DNA of 43,373 nt from a virus. This document shows, one piece after another, positions 23,723-28,135 of this stretch. The stretch spans positions 1 through 43,373 of IMG/VR virus record IMGVR_UViG_3300009156_000049, one strand, 5' to 3'. The notes beneath the pieces were generated by a model. That model was not told the origin of the DNA, did no database searches, and saw only the letters and a program-made list of their open reading frames with translations. The position numbers and the translations under genes were made by a program. The stretch's first letter is position 1, and the number at the start of each line of letters is the position of its first letter.

Positions 23723-23941
23723 ATGTACTATTTGCTATATTGGCTTATATTTTCAGCAGGAGTGCTAGCAGGGTTTCTGCTGCGAGTCTTCTTGAATCGA
23801 TTTTCCCACTATACCGGAGCAATCGTTGTCAGCAAGGTGGAGGGGAAGACGGTATATTCTCTGGTGCTCGAGGACTATCCAGAGAAGATCGAATTACGAA
23901 AACATGTGCTTTTTAGAGTAGTCGAAGATGATCGCGAGTAA
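23723..23941 (+). CDS. Small membrane-anchored protein with beta domain
   Basis: A 72-aa protein. Residues ~2-24 are a membrane helix (YLLYWLIFSAGVLAGFLL). Residues ~33-72 form a short beta module (GAIVVSKVEGKTVYSLVLED, HVLFRVVED) seen in many small phage proteins after tail operons. It starts two bases after the previous stop. Its last codons lie inside the promoter-like element at 23930, so it ends the structural operon. Confidence 0.75.
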   Translation: MYYLLYWLIFSAGVLAGFLLRVFLNRFSHYTGAIVVSKVEGKTVYSLVLEDYPEKIELRKHVLFRVVEDDRE

Positions 23942-23956
23942 AACATCGCTTATTAT
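23930..23956 (+). promoter_or_regulatory. CTCGCAGA-family promoter, copy 1
   Basis: GATCGCGAG, twelve bases and TATTATGAGA. The stretch ACATCGCTTAT is identical to copy 2 at 24389. It overlaps the stop of the gene at 23723 and drives the gene at 23980. The TATTAT box sits at 23951-23956. Confidence 0.65.
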
Positions 23957-23979
23957 GAGACTATATCTAAAGGAGCGCT

Positions 23980-24276
23980 ATGTTTTGGAGAAGCAAGCCA
24001 GATCCGCTCTTTGACCAAGTGATAGAGCTTGGCATGGAAGTGGTGGAACTAGACAAGGAAGCCGGAGAGCAGGTAGCCGCGTTCGAGAGAATGATGAAGC
24101 TGTACGAGCTGCGCGAGAGAATGAAGCGCGAAAGCTCGATCAGCAAAGACACATTGTTGATCGTTGCTGCGAATCTCCTGGGAATCTTGCTGGTTATCCG
24201 CCATGAGCATGTCGGGAATGTCATCACGTCAAAGGCATGGACAATGGTAACCAATCCAAGAATGCCGAAACCCTGA
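23980..24276 (+). CDS. Membrane protein with N-terminal helical domain
   Basis: A 98-aa protein after CTAAAGGAGCGCT. Residues ~8-55 are charged helix (DQVIELGMEVVELDKEAGEQ). Residues ~60-77 are hydrophobic (DTLLIVAANLLGILLVI), then a basic/polar tail. It probably has its helical domain in the cytoplasm and is anchored by one segment. It forms a single-gene unit: promoter copy 1 upstream and a terminator 17 bases downstream. Function unknown. Confidence 0.75.
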   Translation: MFWRSKPDPLFDQVIELGMEVVELDKEAGEQVAAFERMMKLYELRERMKRESSISKDTLLIVAANLLGILLVIRHEHVGNVITSKAWTMVTNPRMPKP

Positions 24277-24293
24277 GAGAGCTCAAGATATGG

Positions 24294-24327
24294 AGGGCCG
24301 CATACGCGGCCTTTCATATTTTTTTCT
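24294..24327 (+). terminator. Rho-independent terminator
   Basis: AGGGCCGC, loop ATAC, GCGGCCTT, followed by a T-rich tract (TTTCATATTTTTTTC). An 8-bp stem including one G-T pair. It ends the unit at 23980. Confidence 0.88.
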
Positions 24328-24388
24328 GAGCTTGAATTTTTTTCTTTTTCAATCTGAAAAAATCCCCGGGGGGAGATTCTCCTACAAA

Positions 24389-24414
24389 CTCGCAGATATT
24401 ACATCGCTTATAAT
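24389..24414 (+). promoter_or_regulatory. CTCGCAGA-family promoter, copy 2
   Basis: CTCGCAGA at 24389-24396, twelve bases, then TATAAT at 24409-24414 followed by GAAAGC. There is no TTGACA-like box at the usual distance. The gene at 24437 begins 22 bases after the TATAAT, so the mRNA leader is very short. Confidence 0.75.
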
Positions 24415-24436
24415 GAAAGCTATCTAAGGAGTAATT

Positions 24437-24529
24437 ATGCTTAGGTTTATCGGAAACTTCTTCCTGTGGATCCTGTTTGGACCCTTCTGGTTGATGTGGA
24501 TGTTGATCAAAGCACTAAAATCTAACTAG
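24437..24529 (+). CDS. 30-aa membrane peptide
   Basis: ATG 24437 preceded by CTAAGGAG. The 30-residue product (LRFIGNFFLWILFGPFWLMW, then KALKSN) is one Trp/Phe-rich hydrophobic helix with a basic end. It has its own promoter and a terminator directly after the stop, which argues that it is a real gene although very short. It might alter the host membrane. Function unknown. Confidence 0.65.
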   Translation: MLRFIGNFFLWILFGPFWLMWMLIKALKSN

Positions 24530-24538
24530 CTTGAAAAA

Positions 24539-24568
24539 GGGAGTCTGAAACATAGATTCTCTTTTTTT
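24539..24568 (+). terminator. Rho-independent terminator
   Basis: GGAGTCT, loop GAAACAT, AGATTCTC (one bulged T), then TTTTTTT. It ends the 30-aa peptide gene and abuts the next promoter copy. The loop sequence resembles that of the terminator at 28418. Confidence 0.75.
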
Positions 24569-24594
24569 CTCGCAGAAATTACACACTCTATAAT
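24569..24594 (+). promoter_or_regulatory. CTCGCAGA-family promoter, copy 3
   Basis: CTCGCAGA at 24569-24576, twelve bases, TATAAT at 24589-24594, followed by GAAACT. It starts right after the T-tract of the preceding terminator and drives the gene at 24623. Confidence 0.75.
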
Positions 24595-26552: not shown

Positions 26553-26618
26553 AGAGCACATGCTCAGTTCATGGCTGATCTAGAACGAGCATATCTCCGA
26601 TTTGCTAATAGCAGCTAG

Positions 26619-26721
26619 CTCTAGGTGCGGGAGAGTTTCCGCGGGCTCGAGGCGAGACTAGAGTGTGTACGGTACGGCACCAAATAGAACCCGCTTTGCG
26701 ATGCACGGTGCTACGCGGTAC
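26619..26721 (+). ncRNA. Structured non-coding segment A
   Basis: Within the gene-free stretch 26553-26760. CTCTAG (26619-26624) pairs with CTAGAG (26658-26663) and encloses two hairpins: GCGGGA-gagt-TTCCGC (26627-26642, one G-T pair) and CTCG-agg-CGAG (26646-26656), a compact three-way junction. A second unit pairs GCACC (26677-26681) with GGTGC (26707-26711), with GTAC repeats outside it. No T-tract follows. It could be a leader of the small gene at 26761 or a separate RNA. Confidence 0.5.
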
Positions 26722-26760
26722 GCATAAATTTCGGAACCAATTATGAAAGGAATCACCCAT

Positions 26761-26883
26761 ATGAAAGACGTAATGGCAGACGATATGCTGATCGCAACAA
26801 CGCTTGTTGCTGTGCCAGTGTACGCGCTGGTGGTCGGGTTCTTTCTCGGTCTTGATGCCGCACGTTGGTTCGGCTGGGCGTAA
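26761..26883 (+). CDS. 40-aa membrane protein
   Basis: ATG 26761 with GAAAGGAATCACCC upstream. The product has an acidic start (KDVMADDM), a hydrophobic helix (LIATTLVAVPVYALVVGFFL) and an aromatic end (DAARWFGWA). It stands alone between two structured non-coding segments, an odd place for a lone peptide. It may be the coding part of a regulated RNA. Confidence 0.6.
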   Translation: MKDVMADDMLIATTLVAVPVYALVVGFFLGLDAARWFGWA

Positions 26884-26910
26884 CAACAAGTTTTAGCATC
26901 TCGTGATAAA

Positions 26911-27280
26911 CAGAAACTAGCGAATGCTAGCGATTTCCCTGTACGGGTAGAGAGTTTTCACAGATGGGTCGAGGACTGGCAGCCATGCCAGGGAGAAGTC
27001 AGCGGGTGAGTAGCGGGACTTCACGAATTCAAGAGTGGTGAGGATAGACCTACATGACGATCCCGTTGGGATAGCAGGCGGTATGTAGGGAGTGTTGGGT
27101 GCCCTCCCCGGGAACAACTGCCTCACCCGAATATTAGTCCGCGTAATAGAAAGAGCCGACAAAACTCGAGTAGGCGCAACCCTCTCGGGACAACGCGGCT
27201 GCCTCGTTGCGGAGGAATGCGTAACTCAGACTGCTTAGCGGTCACTGAGAATGGGGCCGTATGGGTCCTCGCCGCGGACT
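26911..27280 (+). ncRNA. Large structured non-coding RNA candidate B
   Basis: No convincing gene lies in 26884-27310, but perfect inverted repeats are dense: CTAGC-gaat-GCTAG (26917), CTGGCA-gcca-TGCCAG (26976), GAAGTC/GACTTC (26995/27017), CCTACAT/ATGTAGG (27049/27083) enclosing ATCCC-gtt-GGGAT (27060), and GGGTGAG/CTCACCC (27004/27122), which would make a pseudoknot with the GAAGTC helix. A 3' domain is closed by AGTCCGCG/CGCGGACT (27136/27273) and holds CAACG/CGTTG (27191/27205), CTCAG-ACTGC-tta-GCGGT-ca-CTGAG (27225) and GGGCC/GGTCC (27254/27264). Size and complexity recall ornate phage RNAs such as GOLLD or ROOL, but I recognise no class signature. Confidence 0.65.
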
Positions 27281-27310
27281 AACAATTTGTTGCAATTAAG
27301 GAGTCAAGAT

Positions 27311-27337
27311 ATGCAGAATGTAGTATGGGGCGAGTAA
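27311..27337 (+). CDS. Possible 8-aa leader peptide
   Basis: AAGGAG at 27298-27303 is ideally placed for ATG 27311, which opens an eight-codon frame (MQNVVWGE) whose TAA overlaps ATG 27337 of the next gene. Translation of that gene may therefore depend on reinitiation. The alternative is that AAGGAG serves the in-frame ATG 27325 directly, at a poor distance of 21 bases. Confidence 0.35.
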   Translation: MQNVVWGE

Positions 27338-27558
27338 TGGGACATATTTATCTTTTCGGAGTTTCTATACCAGCATTCCTGATCGTCCGGTATCTCGTTA
27401 TGCGTCCACTGAGGAGCTATCTCAAGTACAGGCGTGATCAAAAAAGACAAGAGGATCAGCACTGGCAAGAGTGGTACGCAAAAATGGATGAAGATTATCC
27501 TTTTCTGCAAGACTTGACGAGAATATCGCGGGAGGCGCGGCAGAAAAGGGATCTCTAA
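27337..27558 (+). CDS. Small membrane protein with charged helix
   Basis: A 73-aa protein; ATG 27337 chosen because it overlaps the stop of the short upstream frame, with ATG 27325 as an alternative adding four residues. A hydrophobic helix (HIYLFGVSIPAFLIVRYLV) is followed by a strongly charged helix (YLKYRRDQKRQEDQHWQEW). One-pass membrane protein, probably with a cytoplasmic coiled tail. Function unknown. Confidence 0.65.
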   Translation: MGHIYLFGVSIPAFLIVRYLVMRPLRSYLKYRRDQKRQEDQHWQEWYAKMDEDYPFLQDLTRISREARQKRDL

Positions 27559-27569
27559 GAAAGGACCCT

Positions 27570-28106
27570 GTGCTCAAGAAGACGATTACGTACAAAGACT
27601 TCAACGAAGAGGAAGTCAGTGAAGACTTCTTCTTCCATTTGTCTAAGGCGGAATTAGTCGAGCTCGAGATGAGTCATAAAGGTGGTCTTTCAGCTGCGCT
27701 AGAACGAATCATCGCAGCTGAGGATAATCAAGGTATTATTGCCGAGTTCAAGAATATCATCTTAACAGCCTACGGCAAACGATCTGAGGATGGTAAGCGT
27801 TTCATCAAGAATCAAGAACTACGGGACGAATTCACCTCGACAGAGGCATATTCAACCTTGTTCATGGAGTTGGTCACGGATACAGACGCAGCCACCGCTT
27901 TTATCAATGGAATTATTCCCGCCGATATGATAGCAGAAGCTGAAAAGCTGGTAGCGGCTAATGCAGAAAAAGAGCGGACGCCTGTTGTGACGCCAATCAC
28001 AAAACCAGAGCTAGTTAGCAGGCAAGAACTGACAGCAATGCCGCAGGAGGATCTCGCGAAGATTGGAGCTCGCATTCAGGCTGGTGAAGTGGAGCTAGTA
28101 GATTAG
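27570..28106 (+). CDS. Tail-assembly-chaperone-like protein outside the tail region
   Basis: A 178-aa protein with GTG start after AAGAAAGGACC. The first ~115 residues (TITYKDFNEEEVSEDFFFHL, LSKAELVELEMS, IILTAYGKRSEDGKRFIKNQ, TEAYSTLFMELVTDTDAATA, FINGIIPADM) match a family often annotated as phage tail assembly chaperone. The C-terminal part is polar with PITKPELVSRQELTAMPQED. This phage already has a chaperone in its tail operon, so this copy in an accessory region is unexpected and may do something else. Confidence 0.6.
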   Translation: MLKKTITYKDFNEEEVSEDFFFHLSKAELVELEMSHKGGLSAALERIIAAEDNQGIIAEFKNIILTAYGKRSEDGKRFIKNQELRDEFTSTEAYSTLFMELVTDTDAATAFINGIIPADMIAEAEKLVAANAEKERTPVVTPITKPELVSRQELTAMPQEDLAKIGARIQAGEVELVD

Positions 28107-28109
28107 CAG

Positions 28110-28135
28110 CTCGCAGAGAAAACTCGGCCTATAAT
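28110..28135 (+). promoter_or_regulatory. CTCGCAGA-family promoter, copy 6
   Basis: CTCGCAGA at 28110-28117, twelve bases, TATAAT at 28130-28135 followed by GAAACC. Same spacing as copies 2 and 3. It begins four bases after the preceding stop and drives the gene at 28162. Confidence 0.72.

Follow-up and report, generated by a model that had tools for sequence, protein, structure and literature searches.

The viral DNA analysed here, IMG/VR record IMGVR_UViG_3300009156_000049 (43,373 bases, 50% GC, called the window below), carries several small genes preceded by copies of one short element and, at its right end, the beginning of a gene for a large protein of the family phrog_4291. We argue that the elements are promoters, and that the phrog_4291 protein, a predicted RNA polymerase, is probably the enzyme that reads them. 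A preliminary description of the window had reported six copies of (C/A)TCGCAGA followed by 12 bases and a TATAAT-like box, and a looser relative near 41552. Five of the six (24389, 24569, 24750, 25315 and 28110) are exact, with a box at most one mismatch away from TATAAT. The remaining one starts at 23931 rather than 23930, has a TATTAT box and 3 mismatches in the octamer, and is nevertheless a clear member by weight matrix. As for the relative near 41552, its site matches that of a weak promoter found upstream of the VRR-Nuc gene in related phages, and it keeps the downstream half alone. The copies and their predicted targets, open reading frames (ORFs) whose lengths are given in amino acids (aa), are the following.

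23931..23956, + strand: promoter 1 (diverged), ATCGCGAG-taaaacatcgct-TATTAT, 33 bits by weight matrix; target ORF 23980-24276, 98 aa, phrog_5818.
24389..24414, + strand: promoter 2, CTCGCAGA-tattacatcgct-TATAAT; target ORF 24437-24529 (30 aa).
24569..24594, + strand: promoter 3, CTCGCAGA-aattacacactc-TATAAT; target ORF 24623-24709 (28 aa).
24750..24775, + strand: promoter 4, CTCGCAGA-aaaaacatgcat-TGTAAT; target ORF 24857-25057, after a leader of ~80 nt.
25315..25340, + strand: promoter 5, ATCGCAGA-aaaaacttccgc-TTTAAT; target ORF 25420-25569.
28110..28135, + strand: promoter 6, CTCGCAGA-gaaaactcggcc-TATAAT; target ORF 28162-28410 (phrog_7539).
41532..41557, + strand: promoter 7 (weak), represented by the downstream half AAAC-N6-TTTAATAG alone, with the right spacing; its start lies 72 bp 5′ of the VRR-Nuc gene.

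A motif search over the whole window placed all near-exact copies on the + strand, and the reversed-pattern control gave 0. When 3 mismatches were allowed in the pattern of the preliminary description, the window alone yielded 9 sites against 5.9 in shuffles, which is not above chance. Because this loose count matches the shuffles, the proof has to come from the near-exact copies and from the relatives of the phage. At the DNA level no close relative was detected among phage records, so that protein searches were needed to find them. The DNA primase/polymerase (31480-35247) is at most 59.7% identical to homologues of Rhodococcus equi phage ReqiPoco6 and of Gordonia phages, and has further relatives in Arthrobacter, Streptomyces, Curtobacterium, Microbacterium, Faecalibacterium and Lactococcus phages.

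We fetched 48 related viral loci and ran an iterated weight matrix on them together with the window. About 250 sites lay on the coding strand and 0 on the opposite one; reversed and complemented controls gave 2-3. The motif was present in all ten annotated relatives fetched, which represent seven host genera of Actinobacteria and Firmicutes, Lactococcus and Faecalibacterium included. Counting the TATAAT-like box as -12 to -7, the conserved block reads TCGC(A)-N7-AC(A)-N6-TATAATGARA, and its signal covers positions -31 to -3, in the order TCGC, an A-rich stretch, AC, AT and TATAATGARA. The block is thus longer than first described. Almost no information is present upstream of -31 (224 distinct sites), and hence there is no -35 box. 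The spacing is indeed abnormal for sigma70, as had been noted. In a simple scan of the related loci, all but two of 95 near-perfect sites have a gap of exactly 12.

The sites also avoid genes. In the phages Vardy and FP_oengus, whose genomes are 92% and 87% coding, none of 23 sites is centred in a coding sequence. Vardy has 8 strong sites, and for 7 of its 9 boxes the distance from the end of the box to the following start codon is 23-25 bp. A tRNA-Ala gene immediately follows one of the ReqiPoco6 copies, and similar arrangements with tRNA-like genes were seen in FP_oengus and in genome G061. Copies placed directly 5′ of tRNA or tRNA-like genes are located, in loci of relatives, at L055 12668-12776, L062 2908-3006 and L434 5753-5850. 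With their fixed architecture, their restriction to the coding strand and their position outside genes, the copies form, we are nearly certain, a family of promoters, as had been proposed. It also seems that a single reader serves all units.

Among more distant carriers the motif reduces to a common skeleton, CGC-N7-RC-N8-TWATGR, which has 6 coding-strand sites in the window, 0 on the other strand and 0 in controls. De novo repeat discovery, run with no motif as input on 20 distant polymerase carriers, ranked this skeleton first among the repeat families in 13. In the other seven, the top family consisted of coding or ribosome-site repeats (G058, G059, G068, G070, G076 and G090) or of a half motif joined to a terminator (G075), and the skeleton was nonetheless found in each of them by regular expression. 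Searched in this way, it was present in all 31 genomes tested; coding-strand sites totalled 279, and the controls gave 11, 6 and 8.

Could a host protein be the reader? A sigma70 or sigmaA promoter has a TTGACA-like hexamer 16-18 bp from its -10, which is absent here, and a sigma70 scan of the region found 3 sites against 7.0 in shuffles, none of them at the motif. A repressor operator overlapping ordinary sigmaA promoters, so that the units are switched together, had been envisaged for the window, and repeated operators are indeed common in actinophages, such as the 13-mers in cluster CA phages of Rhodococcus (PMC10986025). We nevertheless consider it quite improbable, as ordinary promoters would show a -35 box, the phase of the block relative to the box is fixed, which operators do not need, and neither integrase nor repressor was recognised among the window proteins searched. 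The RNA-seq of infection by Rhodococcus phage WC1 in the same report (PMC10986025) concerns an unrelated cluster CA phage and provides no evidence either way.

An alternative host sigma factor would account for a fixed two-block architecture. The same architecture is however found in phages of both Actinobacteria and Firmicutes, and bacterial genomes, prophage-like contigs aside, hold the motif at about chance copy number. Indeed, the pattern TCGCRNNNWWWACNNNNNNTATARTGARA gave at least 120 stretches in viral contigs against 2 for the reversed pattern, whereas 84,980 bacterial and archaeal genomes (257 Gb) gave 55, against ~30 expected by chance according to our own estimate from the base content of the pattern. 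Of 21 genomes with such matches that were tested, 9 encode the polymerase; most of these 9 have more than one copy of the motif, which is what prophages or phage contigs would show. A host sigma factor of this kind is, to our mind, very improbable.

The genes behind promoter 7 bring in another candidate. In eight isolates, a weaker copy of the motif lies 75-107 bp 5′ of the VRR-Nuc gene, at the head of an operon that encodes VRR-Nuc, an exonuclease and a protein of ~900 aa. The corresponding genes in the window are the following.

41604..41915, + strand: VRR-Nuc-like endonuclease, at the head of the polymerase operon.
41866..42423, + strand: exonuclease, phrog_3953, annotated as Cas4 family in relatives.
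42420..43373, + strand: first 318 residues of the phrog_4291 predicted single-chain RNA polymerase, with the N-terminal helix-turn-helix (HTH) modules; the gene is cut by the contig end.

The right end of the window falls inside this last gene, and ~2 kb are missing compared to relatives. The 318 residues match phrog_4291 (4.6e-125) and are 93% identical to the complete copy of locus L072. The ~900-aa protein follows the exonuclease in every isolate, under the names 'HTH', 'structural protein', 'RNA-dependent RNA polymerase' or hypothetical protein. In Pfam searches, both its termini match HTH domains, and its central part weakly matches RdRP (PF05183). The motif GADFDGD is present in all 10 isolates and invariant in 106 relatives, among sequence sets that were partly collected with that same pattern. 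A sequence profile search of the Protein Data Bank (PDB) produced short C-terminal HTH-like matches only. An AlphaFold model of the L072 protein built on 106 sequences reached a mean pLDDT of 87.5; it superseded a first, poor model from 11 sequences (pLDDT 58.6). The top Foldseek matches of the model in the PDB were QDE-1 (E 1e-8), RDR2, P74 gp62 (2e-6) and phage gp64, and crAss gp66 matched weakly. With VIA-align, Z scores were 15.1 for QDE-1 over 376-378 residues and 13.1 for P74 gp62 over 357. The structural alignment spans model residues ~228-733, and the HTH-bearing ends lie outside this core. The predicted fold differs from that of T7-type polymerases. From the invariant DFDGD and the predicted fold, the protein can be classed with the single-chain two-barrel RNA polymerases, whose members include QDE-1 and Thermus phage gp64.

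The start of the protein (window 42420-42500; L072 gene 10001-12697) has a nearly invariant sequence, HYGxxRxSGRYPWGSG. It was sought in other virion proteins, and no protein besides the polymerase in the genomes checked contains it; it could serve as a signal for packaging or processing.

How well do motif and polymerase go together? All ten annotated relatives encode phrog_4291, and so do 29 of 33 contigs longer than 35 kb that were picked by the motif alone, although in one of the 29 the match is weak. By itself this association does not single out the polymerase, because the phages share other core genes. A more selective comparison was made among 11 motif-bearing genomes (Scap1, 1706, FP_oengus and the window whole, the remaining ones in part): the phrog_4291 polymerase is the sole HTH-domain protein common to them, no other HTH activator being recognised among their core proteins. 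Promoter divergence correlates with polymerase divergence (r 0.61) and with DNA polymerase divergence (r 0.56), the partial correlations being 0.34 and 0.20 respectively; owing to shared descent, this is weak evidence.

The box itself gives a further indication. Across the 31 genomes it reads TATTAT, TTTTAT, CTTTAT, CTTAAT, TGTTAT or TATAAT, whereas CGC, (A/G)C, the spacing and TWATGR stay constant, with a rigid spacing in every genome tested. All 12 listed sites of FP_oengus have the form RCGCG...CTTTATG, which is not a sigma70 -10 element, 6 of 8 sites in G074 have CTTAAT, and most sites of 1706 read TTTTACATNNNCTATAGTAGAAAG. The TANNNT form with A at -11 is present in actinophages and lost in FP_oengus and G074. 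Since host sigma70 would be expected to keep the A at -11, this drift speaks against a host reader and, together with the missing -35, led us to reject plain sigma70 promoters as the main explanation. A more elaborate version combines host RNA polymerase and sigmaA at the TATAAT box with a phage activator bound to the -31 to -19 block. The T4 middle promoters work along such lines: they have a block near -30, separated from TATAAT by a short constant interval, and need the sigma70 -10 together with MotA and AsiA. As in MotA-type promoters, the block studied here stands at a short fixed distance from the -10, near the place where an activator substitutes for -35 contacts; the TATAAT is near perfect in actinophages, and two universal proteins of unknown function, phrog_4079 and phrog_4678, are at hand. 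The boxes described here differ from T4 middle promoters in that several lineages lose the sigma70 -10 form: FP_oengus, G074, G065, G071 and others have lost the equivalent of -11A and keep the downstream GR. Given also the rigid spacing and the lack of a conserved HTH protein besides the polymerase, we regard a MotA-like activator as unlikely, if the least unlikely of the host-based schemes.

We therefore favour a phage-encoded reader, because the polymerase is the sole shared HTH protein and because the box drifts off the sigma70 form. On comparative grounds, the elements are probably promoters read by phrog_4291, a predicted single-chain two-barrel DNA-dependent RNA polymerase that the phage itself encodes. 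The 'phage-modified polymerase' of the preliminary description pointed in the right direction, except that an enzyme encoded by the phage is favoured over a modified host RNA polymerase, an activator or an operator. In phrog_4291, a core of the QDE-1/P23-45 type is joined to N- and C-terminal HTH modules, and in the scheme we propose this fusion could make promoter recognition possible without a sigma factor. The modules would bind CGC (-30 to -28) and (A/G)C (-20/-19), separated by roughly a turn of the helix. The core would melt the DNA and initiate at TWATGRA (-10 to -4), and the RNA would begin a few bases further on. Many copies would drive single small genes close 3′ of them, between the tail/lysis and the replication genes; several of these small units would end in their own terminator, and a weaker copy would drive the polymerase operon. 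Possibly the polymerase is injected together with the DNA, so that the small units are transcribed without delay. Its delivery in the virion is suggested by one record, that of 1706 orf75 as 'structural protein' (ReqiPoco6 gp106 is recorded likewise, by similarity), and early timing by the position of the units and by their small, separately terminated genes.

Several observations weigh against the polymerase as reader. Four of the 33 motif-bearing contigs lack its gene, possibly because they are fragments; the actinophage box is a good TATAAT that host RNA polymerase might use; and the conserved phrog_4079 and phrog_4678, which have no Pfam match, could be activators. Co-occurrence could stem from shared ancestry, as further core genes, the DNA polymerase and the exonuclease among them, also go with the motif, and there is only a modest gap between the partial correlations. 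Finally, the gene of the window is cut before the catalytic motif. The most general statement, that an injected, self-sufficient polymerase with sigma-like HTH modules reads one code, CGC-N7-RC-N8-TWATGRA, throughout a large lineage of Actinobacteria and Firmicutes phages and runs the early programme without host RNA polymerase, is put forward tentatively, with slightly more doubt than belief.

The region of the promoters has other features. Terminator-like hairpins number 12, against 6.7 in shuffles. Read by eye, a hairpin and T run lie at ~24540-24568, directly 5′ of promoter 3, and another pair precedes promoter 4. Longer leaders follow promoters 4 (24776-24850), 5 (with a terminator-like hairpin at 25365-25390, 5′ of its gene) and 7 (41558-41600), and are possible attenuators or small RNAs. 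Two paralogues of the membrane protein family DUF6353 (phrog_2152; 25752-26552 and 29341-30270) are present in every genome compared. So is a protein matching 'phage tail assembly chaperone' (PF23803; 27570-28106), which lies among the small early-type units, apart from the tail genes. Between 26884 and 27324, ~440 GC-rich bases contain no convincing gene and may be an untranslated RNA, with a fold of -147 kcal/mol that is not significantly better than shuffles (z -1.6) and no Rfam match. Over its whole length the window has no tRNA and no Rfam match.

Part of the motif has been reported before. The announcements of Vardy (PMC9671010) and Conley (PMC10868162), Gordonia phages of cluster DJ, describe an intergenic motif of 50 or 43 bases that is present five times and contains a sigma70 -10, so that the motif is not new in this cluster. 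The Vardy copies belong to the promoter family described here; they were announced as sigma70 -10 for one cluster, with no link to a polymerase or to other hosts. A search of the literature, thin on subscription journals, found no such link either. If our reading is true, it explains a motif listed as sigma70-like by annotators, and gives an identity to a large protein so far named just 'HTH', 'structural' or 'RNA-dependent RNA polymerase'. The promoter family spans dozens of related viruses from soil and gut bacteria.

Single-chain two-barrel phage polymerases with dedicated promoters are already known from Thermus phage P23-45, whose vRNAP (gp96) and nvRNAP (gp64) serve early genes, as phrog_4291 may do, at AT-rich and GC-rich motifs backed by transcription start site mapping and chromatin immunoprecipitation (PMC10770324). 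The P23-45 motifs are different ones, and the phrog_4291 core is fused to HTH modules and known by comparison alone; we found no description in the literature of this HTH-joined form, nor of a promoter code spanning Actinobacteria and Firmicutes phages. The virion RNA polymerase gp66 of the crAss-like phage phi14:2 (PDB 6vr4) is also two-barrel and is carried in the virion, as phrog_4291 may be, and is much larger (2166 residues). YonO of the Bacillus prophage SPbeta, a single-chain DNA-dependent RNA polymerase of ~100 kDa from the same broad superfamily, transcribes late genes, its promoter sequence and need for cofactors having been left open (PMC5467207). For phrog_4291 a candidate promoter family is defined, and the activity is a predicted one. 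Little is settled about how single-chain polymerases of the QDE-1/YonO type locate their promoters; a promoter code, its variants and a candidate reader are now defined, and since code and reader occur in cultivable Gordonia, Arthrobacter, Streptomyces and Rhodococcus phages, the question can be tested directly.

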